A stretch of DNA of 51,719 nucleotides from the NCBI GenBank assembly GCA_902801375.1, contig CADCIB010000020.1, positions 1 through 51,719 on the forward strand, read 5' to 3'. Of the stretch, positions 378-8,250 are shown one piece after another (positions within the stretch are counted from its first letter, which is position 1; each line of letters starts with the position of its first letter). The notes beneath the pieces are model-generated. The model ran no database searches. It saw only the letters and a program-made list of their open reading frames with translations, and was not told the DNA's origin. Origin of the DNA: an uncultured Prevotellaceae bacterium (GTDB lineage Bacteria; Bacteroidota; Bacteroidia; Bacteroidales; Bacteroidaceae). A program made the position numbers and the translations under genes.

Positions 378-3300
378 CTACTTCACCACAAACTTATGGC
401 CTTTGCGGAGGTAGATGCCTTGCTGCGGCTTGCTGTTCACGCGGCGGCCCTGCAGGTCGTAGGTCGCATCAGGACGAGACTGATCCGCGTCGTACTCGAC
501 CACGCCAGTGGTGCTGCCCTCCTTGGTGGTGAACTGCACCGTTTGGCTCCAGTCGCCGATGCGGTCGTCACCCTCGAAGATGCCCTGCACCTGCAAGTCG
601 TAGCGCGTACTGGGCTTCAGACCTAAGATTGTGTAGCCCTGTGCAGCAATCTCTTCCACCGTGTTCCACTCGCCGGCCTCCACGTAACCGCTCTCAGGAT
701 AGGTCATATACGAGATGTCGTCGATATACAGGTAGGTACCCTTCTCGCTGTCGTGGTGGCGGATGGCGATGTAGCCCATACCCGAAGCGCTGATGTCGCT
801 CAGGTCGACGGTATACTTCCGCCAATCATAATGGTCCACTAAGAATTGCTGCGAGGCCTGCTGGAAGTTATCCGTGTCGAAGTTGTTGGTCGAGACATAC
901 ACTGTGACGTGCTCGTCGTAGTTACTATAGGGGCAGCGTGCCCAGAACGAGAAGATGCCGCCCAGTTCCAGCTTCGGCGAGAGGAACCAGTTGTCAGTGC
1001 CTTCCTTCGCCAACGAATAGAGCAGATACCAGCCATCGTGGGCATTCGTGTTCCTTTCTTTATTCCAGCCAGAACCGTCGCCGTCTCCGTCTATATAGGT
1101 CCAATCGTAGGGGCCGCTCTCGAAGTCCACATAGTCATAGGTGCCGTTGTCGCTCTCGCGGTAGCGCAGGTTCCACATCATCTCGCCGCCGTTAGCCGGC
1201 CATGTGGCTTCGGCACTCGTCGACCAAGTGTTCACGGCGATGTCCTTGGTCACCGACACAGGATAGTCGTACTTCGGCTCATCGACATTATAGTGTACAC
1301 TTTCGTCCGTCGGACCCTCTACCTTCACGAACACGGCCTGCAGCGGGGCCAAAGGTCCGCTGGCGGGCTGGAAGTTGCCGTCGTCGTCCATCACCCAGTA
1401 CTGCCGCTTGGCATCGTAGTCATCGCTATAGCTCAGCCAGGCATCGCAGGGATAGGTGTTGCCCACCAGGTTCCAGCCTTCGAAGGGACTGCCGAGCTCT
1501 ATCGAGATGTCGGTACGCATACCAATGCCTGAATGCGGCGGAGTGCCTCGCAGGTCTACGGTCAGGTCGGTAGTCCTGCGGTAGCGGTAGCAATAATACT
1601 TCTGGTTTCCATTGCTCAAATAATAGAGCAGATTCTCGGCCGAGATGCTCCTCCAGCCATAGATCTGGTCGAAATACTCCAAGGTATAACTGCCCTCGAG
1701 CATCTCGTCGGGGAAGTAGAATTGCTGCGGTATACGCAGGTAGTAGTATTGGTTGGCCTTGAAAGTACGTTCAATGCCCACCCATACGCGCTGTCCGTCG
1801 TCGGGACGATACTTCAGCTGTCCGCCCTCCTTGATGGTGAGTAAGCCCAGACCGTCATCCACCTTGATGCCTTTCGCCTCAGCGATATAGCCGGCGGGTA
1901 TGTCACACTCGGCGGCGATGATGACGTCGGCATCGGCGGGCGGCACCTCTTCGTTGAACCAGCAGTCAGGATCGTTCCAGTTGCCATCGCTGATGAACAC
2001 CAGGTCGCTCCACGTCTTGAAGCGCACGATGTCGCTCCACGGGGTGTACACACCGCCGCCTAACTGGCCGCGCACCTTCACGTTGTAGTCGGTGTTCAAG
2101 TCCAGGTCGGTCAGGTTGTGCCAGCCGTTGTCCGTCAGGTTATATTCGTCCACCCAATCGTCCTCCCAGTACTCGCCGTTGAAATGGCCGCTCAGGTAGG
2201 CGATGTCATCGATGACGAGCCAGTTTCCTCCATTGCTGCCATACGCGCGGAGGGCGATATATCCATACTGCCCCAGATACTGGTCGCGCAGCTCGTCGGT
2301 GTCGAGCAGTTCCGGCAAGTCCACGACAAACTGCTGGTACTCCAAAGGCCAATCCCATGTGGGCGACACCTTCACGAAGCTGCTCAGGTCGTCGCGGTCG
2401 GTGGACACATACACCTCCAACTTTCCGCGGTTTGATACTGTGCTGCCGTAGCCCCATGCCCAGAAGGTCATGATGCTGTTCAGGTACTGTGCGGGCAGGA
2501 CGACCCATTCGTCAGCCTGTCCATCATTTGCTATGAGCGAGCAGTTTCCAGTGTGAGCCAAATAGCTATAGCCACTACCCAACACTTCCCAGGTGTACCC
2601 ATCGGCATTGGCATCGTAGACCTTCCAGTCGTCGTTCAGTTCGCCGCTCTCGAAGGTCTCTTCGGGCTCCTTGTCCTTCCAGTAGCGCAGGTGCCACTTC
2701 GTCTCGCCACATCCTGGCTCCCACGCCAAGCTGGCGCGGTCCTGCTTCACGTTAAATACATAGAAATCGTAAGGCGGCAGCATAGAATTGGTCGTGACGA
2801 AGACGGGCGACGACCATCCGCTGACATTGTTGCAGTCGCCGTTCACGGCCATCACCTGAACCACGTAATTTTTCGCAGGCTGCAAGTCCGACAACGTGTA
2901 GGGGTTATTCGTCACGTTCAGCTTATACTTCCATTTGTCCGAATTGCCGGGAAGAGAGGCGGCAGCAAATTCGTATGTGATATAGTCAACGTCTAAGATA
3001 AACTGATCCGTGACATTGAAATGGCGAATGGCCACATAGCCCTCGCCGGAATAGGATGACAAATCAACCGTGTACTCCTTGTATTCTGATTCTGTTGTAA
3101 ACTCCTCCGACACCTGCACGAAGCTGCTTGGACTTGTATTGCCGCTTGTAGAGACAAACACGGCAAAGTGCTCGCTGCAATAACTGGTATCCTGTCCCTT
3201 AGCCCAAAACTTCAGCACACCGCCCAGAGTGAGCTTTGGCGACACTAACCAATTGTCAGGTGTCAGAGCAGAACTTTTGTCATTGTCATAACTCGCAGAA

Positions 3301-4409
3301 CAGACCACTCCTTCACCACTATATGGATTACAGTGCGGAGTGTGCACTTGTTCATGATTATAGAACCAGTCATTTCCGTCGCCGTCAGCATCGATAGAGG
3401 TCCAGCCATCGAATTCCAGTTCAGGGTCTTCAAAGTCCCAGACCAACGTCGTGGTTGTCCCATCAGACTCTCCTCCCTCCTCGGGTAGGCCGTAGCGCAC
3501 AATCCACTTCGTCTCTGTACCACCTGCAGTCCAGCTTATGTTGGCGCTGTTGATGGTAACGTCGGAAGGCACTACGTCTGAAGGCGAAGGCAGGTTGCCG
3601 TCTTCCAATCGCATGGTGAAAGCCTTGCCGTAGCCACTGTTGTTGATGGCCTTGGTCAGGGCGATGGACTCCTCATAGCTCACGCCGCAGAGTACCACTG
3701 CGGGTATGCTACTGATCAAGGCATAAGCGTCCGACAAGGTCAGGCGCAACTCATCGCGCAGCACACCGGCGAGGCTGTCATTGCTCGTTGCGTTCCACAC
3801 CGTGGTCATCCACGTGCCGGAGGGGTCGGCGGGATCGGCTTCCCCGACGGGAACCATCTGCACCGTTGCGCCAAGTGCCGCCAAAGCATTGAAGAGTTCT
3901 GCCGCCGTCTCGTAGTCGACATTCTCCAGGAGTGTGCAGGGGGCGCTGTCGACCAAGTCCTTGGCCTCTTTTAAGCCAATACCTAACAAATTCTTCACCA
4001 CTTTGACCACCTCAAGCTTCTGTGGCCCTGCATTTTCCAAAACCACGTTATAGGTGGGAACGCCTATATAGGTGGGCGGTGTGTACGCCACCTCAGGGTC
4101 GGTGTCGATGAGCGTGGCCGTTGCGCCAGCATCCACGAGGTCGTCGTAGAATGCCTTCGCTGGCTCATAATACGAATTTTCCAACAGCACACAGGGTGCG
4201 CTGTCTACCAAATCCTTGGCTTCCTTCATCCCCAGTCCCAAGTGTTCCTTCACCAACGTAATCACTGTGATCTTGCTGGCCCCGGCACTCTGGAGCGTCA
4301 GTCGCCAAGAGGCTGTCTCCGCCGTCTTGTGCATCGGCGGCAGCTGGGCGGCCCGCGTGCCCACTATCGCGAGCAGGGCCACCATCAAGACTAATAGTTT
4401 CTTTGTCAT
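378..4409 (-). CDS. Secreted multidomain surface protein with three N-terminal L7/L12 C-terminal-like domains, adhesin modules and T9SS-like tail
   Basis: A 1343-residue protein if started at 4409, where a signal peptide begins (MTKKLLVLMVALLAIVG...AAQ); an in-frame start at 4463 would spoil that signal. Residues 35-102 and 119-186 closely resemble the C-terminal domain of ribosomal protein L7/L12, including the helix motif GLGMKEAKDLVDSAP / GIGLKEAKDLVDSAP. Residues 200-269 are a weaker third copy. Then come three FN3-like plus choice-of-anchor/cleaved-adhesin jelly-roll units with Asp-rich DGDGDG turns (around residues 320, 580 and 1090). A G-N-W-N-D-P-D-C-W segment lies near 800. The C-terminal Y-D-L-Q-G-R-R...G-I-Y-L tail resembles a T9SS sorting signal. 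It is probably co-transcribed with the upstream large protein (64-bp gap). Function unknown; extracellular adhesion or scaffolding is inferred. Confidence 0.85.
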   Translation of the reverse strand: MTKKLLVLMVALLAIVGTRAAQLPPMHKTAETASWRLTLQSAGASKITVITLVKEHLGLGMKEAKDLVDSAPCVLLENSYYEPAKAFYDDLVDAGATATLIDTDPEVAYTPPTYIGVPTYNVVLENAGPQKLEVVKVVKNLLGIGLKEAKDLVDSAPCTLLENVDYETAAELFNALAALGATVQMVPVGEADPADPSGTWMTTVWNATSNDSLAGVLRDELRLTLSDAYALISSIPAVVLCGVSYEESIALTKAINNSGYGKAFTMRLEDGNLPSPSDVVPSDVTINSANISWTAGGTETKWIVRYGLPEEGGESDGTTTTLVWDFEDPELEFDGWTSIDADGDGNDWFYNHEQVHTPHCNPYSGEGVVCSASYDNDKSSALTPDNWLVSPKLTLGGVLKFWAKGQDTSYCSEHFAVFVSTSGNTSPSSFVQVSEEFTTESEYKEYTVDLSSYSGEGYVAIRHFNVTDQFILDVDYITYEFAAASLPGNSDKWKYKLNVTNNPYTLSDLQPAKNYVVQVMAVNGDCNNVSGWSSPVFVTTNSMLPPYDFYVFNVKQDRASLAWEPGCGETKWHLRYWKDKEPEETFESGELNDDWKVYDANADGYTWEVLGSGYSYLAHTGNCSLIANDGQADEWVVLPAQYLNSIMTFWAWGYGSTVSNRGKLEVYVSTDRDDLSSFVKVSPTWDWPLEYQQFVVDLPELLDTDELRDQYLGQYGYIALRAYGSNGGNWLVIDDIAYLSGHFNGEYWEDDWVDEYNLTDNGWHNLTDLDLNTDYNVKVRGQLGGGVYTPWSDIVRFKTWSDLVFISDGNWNDPDCWFNEEVPPADADVIIAAECDIPAGYIAEAKGIKVDDGLGLLTIKEGGQLKYRPDDGQRVWVGIERTFKANQYYYLRIPQQFYFPDEMLEGSYTLEYFDQIYGWRSISAENLLYYLSNGNQKYYCYRYRRTTDLTVDLRGTPPHSGIGMRTDISIELGSPFEGWNLVGNTYPCDAWLSYSDDYDAKRQYWVMDDDGNFQPASGPLAPLQAVFVKVEGPTDESVHYNVDEPKYDYPVSVTKDIAVNTWSTSAEATWPANGGEMMWNLRYRESDNGTYDYVDFESGPYDWTYIDGDGDGSGWNKERNTNAHDGWYLLYSLAKEGTDNWFLSPKLELGGIFSFWARCPYSNYDEHVTVYVSTNNFDTDNFQQASQQFLVDHYDWRKYTVDLSDISASGMGYIAIRHHDSEKGTYLYIDDISYMTYPESGYVEAGEWNTVEEIAAQGYTILGLKPSTRYDLQVQGIFEGDDRIGDWSQTVQFTTKEGSTTGVVEYDADQSRPDATYDLQGRRVNSKPQQGIYLRKGHKFVVK
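3603..4307 (-). other. Region encoding tandem L7/L12-CTD-like domains
   Basis: Three consecutive roughly 68-residue segments share the order of ribosomal L7/L12 C-terminal domains: strand (YNVVLENAG), helix with K-V-x-V-I/V-K-x-V-K, the conserved G-[LI]-G-[LM]-K-E-A-K-D-L-V-D-S-A-P helix, then a final helix and G-A-T-x-x-[LM] strand. The first two are strong matches. The third keeps the spacing (LRLTLSDAYALISSIPAVV) but not the charged residues. They follow directly after a signal peptide. Confidence 0.75.
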
Positions 4410-4473: not shown

Positions 4474-7400
4474 TTATTTCACCACCACTTTGCGGCCCTG
4501 ATAGAGATAGATGCCGGGCTTCGCGGGCTGGGCATCCAGCTTCTGTCCGCCTAAGGTGTACCAACTCCCCTCGCCCTTTGGAGAGGGGCTGGGGGTGAGG
4601 CTTTCCATCCCCGTCGCCACTCCTGTCGGCTCGATGGTAATCTTCTTGGCCGTGTTGCCCTTCGAGTTCACAATCTCGCCGTAGTTCACATAACCGCCCT
4701 CGGGCAGCGTGATGGCGCAGTCCTCCAGCTCGATGCCGCCCATGAAGTCGTAGATGCCACGCATGGTGGCCTCCACCTGTACGCGCGCGTTCCTTATGAT
4801 TAGTTTGCTCTCCTTGCCAGTAGCGCCAGACAGGCCATACTTGCCGCTGACGTAGAGGTTGGCGTCCTCAATGAGCAGCGACGAGGATGTGGTCACCTCG
4901 ATGCCTTTCTTCTCAGAGAGGAGCGACAGCTGGTGGCTGCCTGTCAGCGTAGTGGCCGTTTCCAACAGGATGGCTGCATCGCCGCTCTTCAGCTCGGCAT
5001 CGGCATCGACGCTGATGGTCACGCCGAAGGTGCGGTTGCGAATCACGTGGTCGCGCGTGGTTTCGTAGCTGCCCTTCACGTGGAGCACCATCGACTCTGG
5101 GTCGTAGCTGAACTGGCCGTCGCCCAGGATGTCGTCGCAGTTGCCCTGCGTCACCGACTGCTCGTTCACGAAAATGCTGTAGTTGTACACACGACTGATG
5201 ACCACATGGCTAGCCACGTTGCCGCTGGCGTCCACCACCTGCCCGCCGGCAATCTGTCCACCCGCAGGCTCCGTAATCTCGCAGCTGCTCAGCATGATGC
5301 CTTCGGAGAAGCCCGCGATGGCAGCCTCGCCGTCGGCCGATGTCACGTCGAGCGTAGCGCCCGTGATGGTCAGGTGGCAGCGTTTCTCGCCGGTAATGCC
5401 CAGCAGGGCCTGGCGTCCAGTGGCCACAAGGTTCATGGCCGACAGCGACAGCGTGCCGTTGGTGATGCTGACGGCATTCTCCGTACCTGTAAGCGTCACG
5501 TTGTTCGAGCCCGAGCCCCTCAGCGTCGTGCTGCCCGTGGCCTTGATGGCGGCGCAGCCCTCACCTTCAGCCGAAAGCGCGATGTCGTTCTTCAGCTCTA
5601 TCTGCAAGCCGTCGATGCGGCTCTCGATGGCGGGGCAGCCGTCGGTCATGATGTCGCAGCCCACCGTTAGGCGCTTGTTGTTCAGATCGTATTTTATCTT
5701 TCCGTTGCCGTCGATGTCGAAGCGGTTATGCTCGTTCACGCGCACGCCGCCTACCCAGAGGTCGTAGGCCTCGTAAGGTTTCGAGATGACTACCCACTGT
5801 TTCTGCACGATGTTGCCCTCGCCGTCGTACACATGCATGCCTTCGAAGTGTGCGCCCTCTGGCTCGTTGAGTACCAGCCCGTCGTTCAGCGTGAACGACT
5901 CCAGGCGGATGATGCTGCCATACGGGCCATATGCACGCACTTCCGTGTTGGCACCTTCCACAACAAGGTTGCTGGTGGGCGTGCCCGAAGGCGGTTTCAG
6001 CGAGCCGATAATGCCGTAGTATACTGTGCCGTGGGCTATCAGGCGCACGCCGCCGTTCACCGTCAGCGTAGAGTTTTGGGCAACGAACAGACTGGTGGGA
6101 GCCGTTGCCGTGAGGGTGCCCGATCCGCACAGGGTGACATCGCCCTGGAAAGTCACGGCGGTATTGTGCGAGCTGGTGATGTTGGTCTTGCCGTTCACCA
6201 CCACCTTCAGGCCAGGAATATTTGTCACAAGAGCCTTGCCATATTGCGATGCCGCATCGGTATCCGAGGCATCGTTATTGATGGTGGCATTGTCCAGCGT
6301 CAGCGTATTCGTCGCTTCGTCGTAGCTCACCTTGCCGTCGCCCAGGATGTCGTAGGCGAAGTCCTCGACCACCTGAGTACCTCCTACCCAGAGGTCATAC
6401 TTCTTGGGTGGCATCTTAATCAGCACCCCTGTGGCCTGATTGCCGTCAGCATCCACGATGCATTGTTTCAAGGCATTGAAACGCGCACCCTCGGGCTGGA
6501 CGATAGCCAGTCCGTCGTTCAGCGTCAGGGAAGCTATATCCACGATTCCATATTCCGCATAGACCTTTGTCTCGGCACCTGAAATGGTAAGCGGAGTGGA
6601 ATATTCACTGGCACAGCCAGAAATCTTGTCGGCATTGATTTCACAGCCACCTTCAATCGTAATACCCTTTCCTGCACAGATACTGCCGCTTAACGAGCCA
6701 GTGCCTGTGAAGATGCCATTCTTTTCTAACATTTGGATATCGTAGAACCCTCCCCAGTTATCCAGTTTGTTTTCACCTACGAGATTGATGGTAAAGTCTT
6801 CGCCTTCAAAACTTTCATCTACCCTGATGACAATGTCGTCAAGGAGCGTGATGCTAACATTGTCCAGCGTCAGCGTCTTCGTCGCATCGTCGTAGCTCAC
6901 CTTGCCGTCGCCCAGGACATCGTAGGCATTCTCCTCGTCGACCGCTATGCCACCCACCCTGAAGTTGTAGGCTTTCGATCTGCGGATAATCACACCTTTG
7001 GCCTCTGCTCCGCTTGTTGTCACCACGCGGTACTTTTCGACGTAATGCCCTCCCTTGGGCTCGACGATGGTCAACCCGTCGTTGAGTGTCAAAGACGGGA
7101 AGTAGTAGATGTTGCCAGAAAGCTCGATTTCCGTTCCTGCACCCGACACTATCAGGGGAACGTCGGTGAAGTCCCACGACACAAGGGCCGAAGCTGCAAT
7201 ATGGCAATCTCCGTTGATGCTCAAGCTTTTCTTTCCATTGATATAGATGGCTCCTTTAAGATTCAGCGCCCCAGGTCCCGTGATGATTGTATTCGAAAAA
7301 AGCTGCCAGTTGCTTCTGTGGTCCGACGGGGTGCTGAAAAGGTTGTCGCCAATCAGCTTGATGGTGAAATGGTCTATTGTTCCCCCATCGTCGGACATGA

Positions 7401-8250
7401 TGATGGAATTGTCATCGGAGCAACTGACAATGGTATTGTCGAGGGTGAGCGTCGCCGTCTCAGGGTCGTAGCTCACCTTTCCGCCGATGCCTTCGCCCGT
7501 CACGTTGCTGGCATTGTCCTTCGTCACCAGCTGTCCAGCCACCATGATAAAGGGCCAGTTGTCTTCCTCGTCTTCTGTCGATGCGATTTTCAATCTCACT
7601 GCCCTTTCTCCATTGGCATCCACCACGTATTTCTCATCCGTATCGTAATAGCCGTCTTTGGGGCGTATGATCTTCAGCCCGTCGTTCAGCACGAAATGGT
7701 CGTAGCCAATGACGCCCGAATAGTCGGACTGCATATCCAATTTTGTGTCTGCCCCACTCACGCTGAAGGTGTAGCCCGTGCCGTAGTAGTCGTCCGTATG
7801 AAAGTATACTCCCGTAATCTTACATCCCCCTGAGATATAGCAGTCGTCTTGCACCTCAAAATCGTCATTGGATTCCAATGTGCCAGGGCCCTTTATATAC
7901 GTAGTGACAAACGACTGTATGGCATGCCGTACAACCGTGTCGGTCTGCTTGACCAAGATTTTGTTGTCACCTTTCAATACCAGCGTGAAGTCATCACCAT
8001 CATGATGGGAAAACATGATATTCAATTCGATGCCATTATTGTCGGTCACATCGATGGTGGCATCCTCTAAGGTCATCGTGCGCGTTTCTGGGTCGTACGA
8101 GACTTTTCCGCTAATGCCCTCACCCGTGATGTTGGAGCAATTGTCAGATGTCACCTTGACACCTGCGACTTTTATGTCGTAAACATCAGCCCAAGCACCC
8201 TGAGCTATCGCCAAGAGCGCTATCAATAGTGTACAGATTCTTGTTTTCAT
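4474..8250 (-). CDS. Secreted six-repeat beta-rich protein with T9SS-like tail
   Basis: A 1258-residue protein from the ATG at 8250, which opens a signal peptide (MKTRICTLLIALLAIAQGAWA); the longer in-frame start at 8334 adds a non-signal leader. Six units of about 190-210 residues begin near residues 23, 231, 427, 617, 827 and 1022. Each opens with a pattern like Y-D-L-W-V-G-G-x-x-V...D-I-L-G-D-G-K-V-S-Y-D...L-T-L-D-N, followed by short beta strands typical of a right-handed beta-solenoid. This repeat is common in Prevotella and clostridial surface proteins of unknown role. The tail (Y-T-L-G-G-Q-K-L...G-I-Y-L-Y) resembles a T9SS sorting domain. Just before it, residues translated from a palindromic repeat (LTPSPSPKGEG) are inserted. 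No catalytic motif was seen. Confidence 0.85.
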   Translation of the reverse strand: MKTRICTLLIALLAIAQGAWADVYDIKVAGVKVTSDNCSNITGEGISGKVSYDPETRTMTLEDATIDVTDNNGIELNIMFSHHDGDDFTLVLKGDNKILVKQTDTVVRHAIQSFVTTYIKGPGTLESNDDFEVQDDCYISGGCKITGVYFHTDDYYGTGYTFSVSGADTKLDMQSDYSGVIGYDHFVLNDGLKIIRPKDGYYDTDEKYVVDANGERAVRLKIASTEDEEDNWPFIMVAGQLVTKDNASNVTGEGIGGKVSYDPETATLTLDNTIVSCSDDNSIIMSDDGGTIDHFTIKLIGDNLFSTPSDHRSNWQLFSNTIITGPGALNLKGAIYINGKKSLSINGDCHIAASALVSWDFTDVPLIVSGAGTEIELSGNIYYFPSLTLNDGLTIVEPKGGHYVEKYRVVTTSGAEAKGVIIRRSKAYNFRVGGIAVDEENAYDVLGDGKVSYDDATKTLTLDNVSITLLDDIVIRVDESFEGEDFTINLVGENKLDNWGGFYDIQMLEKNGIFTGTGSLSGSICAGKGITIEGGCEINADKISGCASEYSTPLTISGAETKVYAEYGIVDIASLTLNDGLAIVQPEGARFNALKQCIVDADGNQATGVLIKMPPKKYDLWVGGTQVVEDFAYDILGDGKVSYDEATNTLTLDNATINNDASDTDAASQYGKALVTNIPGLKVVVNGKTNITSSHNTAVTFQGDVTLCGSGTLTATAPTSLFVAQNSTLTVNGGVRLIAHGTVYYGIIGSLKPPSGTPTSNLVVEGANTEVRAYGPYGSIIRLESFTLNDGLVLNEPEGAHFEGMHVYDGEGNIVQKQWVVISKPYEAYDLWVGGVRVNEHNRFDIDGNGKIKYDLNNKRLTVGCDIMTDGCPAIESRIDGLQIELKNDIALSAEGEGCAAIKATGSTTLRGSGSNNVTLTGTENAVSITNGTLSLSAMNLVATGRQALLGITGEKRCHLTITGATLDVTSADGEAAIAGFSEGIMLSSCEITEPAGGQIAGGQVVDASGNVASHVVISRVYNYSIFVNEQSVTQGNCDDILGDGQFSYDPESMVLHVKGSYETTRDHVIRNRTFGVTISVDADAELKSGDAAILLETATTLTGSHQLSLLSEKKGIEVTTSSSLLIEDANLYVSGKYGLSGATGKESKLIIRNARVQVEATMRGIYDFMGGIELEDCAITLPEGGYVNYGEIVNSKGNTAKKITIEPTGVATGMESLTPSPSPKGEGSWYTLGGQKLDAQPAKPGIYLYQGRKVVVK
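4564..4602. repeat. Palindromic repeat embedded in frame in a coding region
   Basis: The bases run CTCCCCTCGCCCTTTGGAGA then GGGGCTGGGGGTGAGG. Read on the coding (minus) strand they give S-L-T-P-S-P-S-P-K-G-E-G-S, the well-known peptide signature of a dispersed C-rich/G-rich repeat translated by chance. It sits in the linker before the C-terminal sorting tail and does not break the frame. Confidence 0.7.

Follow-up and report, generated by a model that had tools for sequence, protein, structure and literature searches.

The locus described here raises the question of what a domain of the ribosomal protein L7/L12 is doing in a protein that appears to be destined for the cell surface. In the window (the whole stretch of DNA analysed, 51,719 nucleotides from an uncultured Prevotellaceae bacterium), the original prediction had placed three tandem units resembling the L7/L12 C-terminal domain (CTD), two strong and one weak, after a signal peptide. 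This arrangement is upheld by Pfam, by a profile of rplL and by hhalign comparisons, and the predicted coordinates were right to a few bases (the copies lie at about 4310-4101, 4061-3846 and 3824-3594). It seems that part of the translation machinery has been given a second use outside the cell.

Gene layout, secretion and genomic surroundings

The gene is a single, unbroken open reading frame on the minus strand, with an ATG at 4409 and a stop at 378-380, and its product contains, from the N- to the C-terminus, a signal peptide, L12 domains 1 to 3, three adhesin stretches with fn3 domains, and a tail. The features of the gene and its neighbour are listed below.

378..4409 (-): whole gene for a secreted multidomain protein of 1343 aa (open reading frame and translation; Pfam and NCBIfam)
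4347..4409 (-): putative signal peptide MTKKLLVLMVALLAIVGTRAA, followed by QLPP (by eye; hydrophobic core 3.47, Kyte-Doolittle)
4101..4310 (-): L12 C-terminal-like domain 1, residues 34-103 (PF00542, 62.4 bits on DNA; rplL profile, 42.9 bits)
3846..4061 (-): L12 C-terminal-like domain 2, residues 117-188 (PF00542, 77.4 bits; rplL profile, 64.3 bits; 1ctf, E 4e-16)
3594..3824 (-): degenerate L12 C-terminal-like domain 3, residues 196-272 (rplL profile, 8.5 bits; hhalign, 97.6%)
2976..3410 (-): best-scoring cleaved-adhesin / choice-of-anchor J stretch (PF07675, NF038128)
381..515 (-): putative short type IX secretion signal, ...TTGVVEYD...YDLQGRRV...GIYLRKGHKFVVK (by eye, against P. intermedia motifs)
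4474..8250 (-): neighbouring secreted-looking repeat protein, 1258 aa (blastp to L12-fused repeat regions elsewhere)

The cleaved-adhesin / choice-of-anchor J models PF07675 (E 1.8e-45, 155.4 bits against a cut-off of 21.4) and NF038128 (E 8.1e-63, 211.4 bits against a cut-off of 30) each match three stretches of the 1343-aa protein, and fn3 likewise matches three stretches (E 2.8e-11). Together with a tail that looks, by eye, like a type IX signal, these matches agree with the earlier view that the remainder of the protein is of an extracellular type. The residue directly after the putative signal peptide, at the presumed cleavage site, is a glutamine, which fits the Q-rule for Bacteroidetes signal peptides (as given in the accessible part of PMC5837995). 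For the short type IX signals of P. intermedia, the portion of PMC11969387 consulted describes cleavage near PT/GI, a motif B that includes Gly, Tyr and a basic residue, a motif D of the form GxY and a motif E with Lys, and the tail YDLQGRRV...GIYLRKGHKFVVK shows features of these signals by eye; none of the curated secretion-tail models in Pfam and NCBIfam matched it at E values up to 1. In addition, the same genome encodes a type IX sortase (NF033707, 823.2 bits, over the cut-off). The protein is accordingly described here as a putative type IX secretion cargo, its export being read from sequence.

The neighbouring repeat protein has no Pfam family over the cut-off, and its C-terminal tail resembles that of the 1343-aa gene product. 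By blastp, its repeats match an Alloprevotella locus (L138, E 1.35e-40) and a locus of genome G084 (L064, E 2.6e-36), in both of which repeats of this type are fused to an L12 CTD. That the repeat protein adjoins the L12 gene here and is fused to the domain elsewhere hints at a function in common. Around the more distant relative in Prevotella sp. RGIG5176 (see below), no such repeat protein was seen by eye within 3.5 kb upstream or 0.8 kb downstream. The end of the gene lies 377 bases from the start of the contig, so that one flank is outside the view; the upstream flank is the repeat-protein gene and not rplJ.

Within the window's assembly (57 contigs, 96% complete), PF00542 matches only the 1343-aa gene, and neither rplJ (ribosomal L10) nor rplL was found. 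The joint absence of both genes indicates that the ribosomal operon probably fell into an assembly gap, and the notion that the secreted gene replaces a lost ribosomal rplL was rejected on these grounds.

The three units as L7/L12 C-terminal domains

When the whole protein is compared with Pfam, Ribosomal_L12 (PF00542) is matched over two stretches with an E value of 1.1e-40 and 138.2 bits (cut-off 25.9); copy 3 receives no PF00542 call. In the search of the DNA, the matches of 62.4 (copy 1) and 77.4 bits (copy 2) cover positions 3-66 and 1-66, respectively, of the 67 in the model. All three copies are detected, at 42.9, 64.3 and 8.5 bits, respectively, by a profile derived from the C-terminal domains of 30 distinct rplL of the same genus. 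The best match of solved structure is 1ctf, the C-terminal domain of E. coli L7/L12, over copy 2 (E 4e-16). The third unit was compared by means of a profile built from four sequences, which gave hhalign probabilities of 97.6% (score 60.6) against the secreted L12 domains of other gene families and 84.3% (score 32.1) against rplL, the maxima over 60 column shuffles per comparison being 1.5% and 1.0%, respectively. This result rules out a pure linker, and we take domain 3 to be a real, decayed L12 copy. Within the region that had been proposed for such a profile search, copies 1 and 2 score well over the cut-off, and copy 3 beats all shuffles.

The helix motif that had been described as kept from the ribosomal protein is present twice, as GLGMKEAKDLVDSAP and GIGLKEAKDLVDSAP in copies 1 and 2; copy 3 has LTLSDAYALISSIP in its place, and the description has to be restricted to the first two copies. 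The ClpS adaptor has the same fold as the L12 CTD, and no ClpS family appears at E values up to 1 in the Pfam or NCBIfam lists. TIGR00855, the NCBIfam model of whole L7/L12, aligns only at positions 59-123 of 125, which correspond to the C-terminal domain. Proteins of the bL12 family consist of an N-terminal dimerisation domain and the CTD, about 120-130 aa in all, and the 1343-aa protein has the CTD part only. By profile comparison, the domain is homologous to ribosomal bL12, but the protein is no member of bL12.

Occurrence in the genus and beyond

Recurrence downstream of signal peptides in other Prevotella had also been anticipated, and further carriers were found in the genome survey. Among 398 same-genus genomes, the window's own (G000) included, PF00542 matches 268, and nearly all of the matches listed are of rplL size. 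After a recheck of 41 genomes in which there were either two or more matches or just a weak one, and after 20 stretches had been opened, at least 14 of the 398 genomes (own included) were found to carry secreted-type L12 domains, in 18 genes. A clear hydrophobic signal sequence precedes 15 of these; none was clear at the starts tried in L071, L074 and L075. The closest same-genus relatives, judged by the 251-aa N-terminal region, are in G085 (67% identity) and G141 (65%, with a paralogue, L067, at 50%), and these two genomes are also the ones that hold relatives of the same build. In L067, the rplL profile reported no copy 3.

The partners of the module are diverse: a cleaved adhesin (L070 by Pfam; L067-L069, L073, L074, L076 and L079 by likeness), LRR (L077, with four L12 copies) and repeat regions (L064, L066, L071, L072 and L075), with dockerin-like ends in L071 and, below the cut-off, in L065. 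Another of the carriers (L078:2812-4395, plus strand) encodes a signal peptide, an L12 domain and then a GH8 glycoside hydrolase. Depending on the build of the protein, the L12 module is N-terminal, lies between jelly rolls or stands just before the secretion tail, and many carriers have one copy only. Such variation in position and build is what would be expected of an independent module. The arrangement is less isolated than it had first seemed and represents one instance of a secreted, mobile module of Prevotella-type bacteria. A separate observation in the same genus is a 770-aa protein without a signal peptide (G294, L063:1742-4054, plus strand), the C-terminal L12 domain of which is near rplL (89.3 bits). 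Of the weak PF00542 matches that begin close to profile position 22-23 in open reading frames of 250-300 aa, the two that were opened score -1.9 (L081) and 7.5 bits (L082) with the rplL profile and were set aside as chance; L082 reads by eye as a short-chain dehydrogenase.

In a sample of 329 same-family genomes (own included), PF00542 matches 286, and with 26 genomes rechecked and 18 stretches opened, at least 17 are secreted-type carriers, three of which (G000, G061 and G365) are shared with the same-genus sample. The additional ones include G542 (two genes), G469, G517, G504 and G530, with a signal sequence in each. A second genus, g18, contributes nine carrier genomes; in eight of them the frames span 4670-4974 aa, and in the ninth the frame is truncated at 1129 aa. 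Eight of the nine were opened (L128, L129, L130, L131, L132, L139, L142 and L143). Close to their C-termini, the g18 proteins carry between one and five L12 copies (at least three in eight of nine), both of the protein starts that were read (L158 and L159) have a signal peptide, and LRR is the only other Pfam family over the cut-off in the scanned parts of two of them.

A protein-motif pattern run across a named collection of 84,980 species returned 45 loci, nine of them not rplL, with six of the nine coinciding with genomes of the same-genus and same-family samples. The nine are Prevotella koreensis, P. falsenii, Prevotella sp. OH937_COT-195, Alloprevotella sp. OH1205_COT-284, RGIG5176, two uncultured Prevotella/Prevotellaceae, an uncultured Clostridia and an Amycolatopsis. 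The protein of the sheep-abomasum Prevotella sp. RGIG5176 is 42% identical to that of the window over 1178 residues and has two L12 copies, domain 3 being absent. The Clostridia locus (L099:2104-5490, minus strand) encodes 1128 aa with a signal-like start and a single C-terminal L12 domain.

At the level of the phylum (218 genomes, 217 besides the window's own), extra copies are rare: more than one PF00542 match occurs in 5 of the 217 genomes, and a recheck of these five showed additional matches well above the cut-off in two (G880 and G911), where they lie in long frames. The frame in G880, from another Bacteroidota family (L153; G880:C72:78707-85675, minus strand), has 3165 aa and two L12 domains nearly 7 kb apart, and is perhaps a published conflict-system protein. 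Two further loci depart from rplL in other ways. L140 (3897-4976, minus strand) encodes a protein of about 359 aa with TIR, an L12 C-terminal domain and a SEC-C motif, for which a defence or signalling role is possible, and L141 (3068-3379, plus strand) is a frame of 104 aa that has an L12 C-terminal domain (45 bits) but does not resemble rplL at its N-terminus.

Descent and conservation

A tree of 112 domain copies over 68 columns includes 62 of 63 secreted copies (L137 was too short and left out). In this tree, 33 secreted copies form one group (support 98/91), Bacteroidota rplL form a separate group that also holds two cytosolic copies (100/95), and 26 g18 copies form a third (96/70). The other three secreted copies lie outside these secreted groups: L065 next to the g18 group, and L135 (on a long branch) and L099 among rplL of other phyla. 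Copies 1 cluster together across the window protein and the proteins related to it (99/93), as do the copies 2 of the window, G085 and G141 (100/91), and since same-numbered copies cluster across species, the tandem is older than these species. The root serves for drawing only, and with 68 columns against 112 rows the alignment does not fix the order of the deepest forks; within that limit, the tree lends no support to a recent copying event from the rplL of the genus itself. The domain behaves like an accessory module that Prevotella lineages have distributed over their secreted proteins.

In all four comparisons, domain 1 is conserved better than any other part of the protein. Its identity between the window protein and that of G085 is 76%, relative to 57% for domain 2, 62% for domain 3 and 53% for the rest; the figures for the G141 paralogue are 64, 49 and 34% for domains 1, 2 and 3 and 49% for the rest, those for RGIG5176 are 64% (domain 1), 38% (domain 2) and 41% (rest), and those for G141 are 71% (domain 1) and 54% (rest). 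The dN/dS ratios, which are rough on account of large synonymous distances, are 0.13 for domain 1, 0.43 for domain 3 and 0.40 for the rest in the window-G085 pair (domain 2 being saturated), and 0.17, 0.17 and 0.68 for domains 1, 2 and 3 and 0.34 for the rest in the comparison with the G141 paralogue. The close pair G085-G141, with few changes, shows no measurable constraint (domain 1 dN 0.038, dS 0; domain 2 dN/dS 0.60).

The helix-4/5 face

In the ribosome, L12 is said to meet EF-Tu via helices 4 and 5 (Kothe 2004), and its C-terminal domain is reportedly the part that binds factors (Helgstrand 2007); positions 65, 66, 69, 70 and 73 are taken here to be sites of the helix-4/5 face. The part of PMC9239087 available names K81, K84 and K100 for the binding of IF2, EF-Tu, EF-G and RF3, and binding of RF3 by the C-terminal domain is also described in PMC6076264.

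Residues were counted in 36 secreted Prevotella-type copies, with L099 left out. Positions 65, 70, 73 and 84 are basic in 101 of 140 cells, compared with 29 of 144 for positions 95, 100, 107 and 108; with position 81 added to the former and 100 removed from the latter, the counts become 113/176 versus 26/108, and these are the fairer ones because K100 belongs to the face according to the same portion of PMC9239087. The contrast holds in 21 representatives under 60% identity (66/104 versus 16/63) and is small in 11 g18 representatives (29/55 versus 16/33). With K100 counted as part of the face, 116/212 cells are basic, and positions 81, 84 and 100 by themselves are basic in 42/108. In other words, K84 and R/K73 are mostly kept in the secreted Prevotella-type copies, K81 and K100 mostly are not, the helix-4/5 hydrophobics are mostly retained, and there has been drift in helix 6 and in most of the charges off the face. 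Copy 2 of the window retains K65, K70, K73, K81, E82 and K84 and is one of 10 copies among the 36 in which positions 65, 70, 73 and 84 are all basic; position 70 is not basic in 15 of 35 readable copies, copy 1 of the window included.

Of 37 secreted copies, that of L099 among them, 28 have a cysteine at position 92; the count includes two loci, L095 and L099, fetched with a pattern demanding Cys 92. The genus's own rplL has Ala or Ser at 92 and Cys at 76. The 38-row comparison set derives largely from the same pattern and so cannot serve as a control for position 92; it also contains a row, L141, that is probably not rplL.

Possible functions of the secreted module

We favour, at a probability of about one half, the reading that an exapted L7/L12 CTD, placed at the free end of a surface adhesin, serves to bind proteins or peptides outside the cell. 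Export would proceed by Sec and subsequently through the type IX system, and the C-terminus would become anchored on the outside of the cell; such anchoring would leave the L12 domains at the free N-terminal end, on a stalk formed by the adhesin and fn3 domains. There they would bind a protein partner via the helix-4/5 face, with tandem copies giving avidity, and the likely role would be adherence to other cells or to surfaces coated with protein. Homology, the tandem arrangement, recurrence with signal sequences, the conservation of domain 1, the basic face and the sortase speak for this reading. Against it stand the fall in face retention to 116/212 when K100 is counted and to 42/108 for positions 81, 84 and 100, the weak contrast in g18, a domain 2 that is hardly better conserved than the rest (57% versus 53%), a variable domain 3 and the close pair G085-G141, in which constraint is not measurable; moreover, retention of the basic face could reflect fold stability rather than binding.

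Binding is preferred over three further roles, namely a spacer, self-assembly and translation-factor capture, in that order. A small, stable and soluble L12 fold may possibly do no more than lengthen or cap surface proteins, without a ligand. Such a spacer would explain why many different positions and partners are tolerated, why helix 6 and most off-face charges have drifted, why copy 3 is degenerate and absent in RGIG5176, and why the conservation of domain 2 barely exceeds that of the rest, but it leaves unexplained the conservation of domain 1 above the adhesin part in four of four comparisons and the retention of K84, R/K73 and the helix-4/5 hydrophobics in most Prevotella-type copies. 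It seems unlikely that the L12 domains pair within or between molecules into a surface layer or fibre, as the tandem copies, a potentially cross-linking Cys 92 (28/37 copies, two of them fetched by the Cys-demanding pattern) and the term multimerizing, applied to the domain in the accessible part of PMC7159879, might suggest. Many carriers have a single copy, and the N-terminal domain, which is the dimer-forming part of L12, is absent here.

It is improbable that tandem L12 domains at adhesin tips serve as an extracellular receptor that catches translation GTPases such as EF-Tu, EF-G or similar proteins, on or from neighbouring cells, via the helix-4/5 face. EF-Tu can be displayed on cell surfaces, and the basic residues at 65, 70, 73 and 84 persist together in 10 of 36 copies, copy 2 of the window included. 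The L12 C-terminal domain does bind IF2, EF-Tu, EF-G and RF3 (PMC9239087), but position 70 is not basic in 15/35 copies (copy 1 of the window among them), and K81 and K100 are mostly lost. If true, a universal intracellular interaction would have been turned into a cell-recognition system, one that could work across many bacterial species. An assembly error or a mis-joined rplL, as the lack of any other L12 domain and of rplJ from the window's assembly might imply, has next to no probability: the gene is one unbroken frame, the domains are strongly divergent from rplL and fall outside its group in the tree, and an artefact is ruled out by relatives from other assemblies with the same layout.

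Relation to known systems

A ribosomal domain whose partners are well known has become a component of many secreted-type proteins in Prevotella and related bacteria. If the module binds a partner outside the cell, the known binding face makes the question of its ligand directly testable, and the fusions and giant proteins constitute a ready set of members, several of them in named isolates.

The literature search found no L12 domain within described cleaved-adhesin architectures and no report of a secreted or type IX L12 domain, a weak negative because coverage was partial and the spelling L7/L12 was unsearchable. Reuse of L12 outside the ribosome is already known; the secreted version may be new. 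To the type IX-carried cleaved-adhesin / choice-of-anchor J proteins, the window protein is similar in its adhesin domains, its fn3 domains and its putative short secretion signal. Among 473 putative orthocaspases, the portion of PMC8283722 consulted mentions one cyanobacterial protein with a Ribosomal_L12 domain, likewise a non-ribosomal L12 fusion, but caspase-like and not an adhesin. The vWA-MoxR-beta-propeller conflict systems of Bacteroidetes, for which the accessible part of PMC7159879 describes L12/ClpS domain insertions, share with the window protein the non-ribosomal reuse of L12 in the same phylum, whereas the window protein has a signal peptide, adhesin domains and a type IX-like tail. 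Compared with the bL12 CTD itself (PF00542, 1ctf), the likeness amounts to near full-length homology of the domain, with the helix-4/5 motif in copies 1 and 2, while the differences lie in the missing N-terminal dimerisation domain, the length of 1343 aa, the putative secretion, the tandem arrangement, the changed off-face charges and the grouping of the window's L12 copies apart from rplL.
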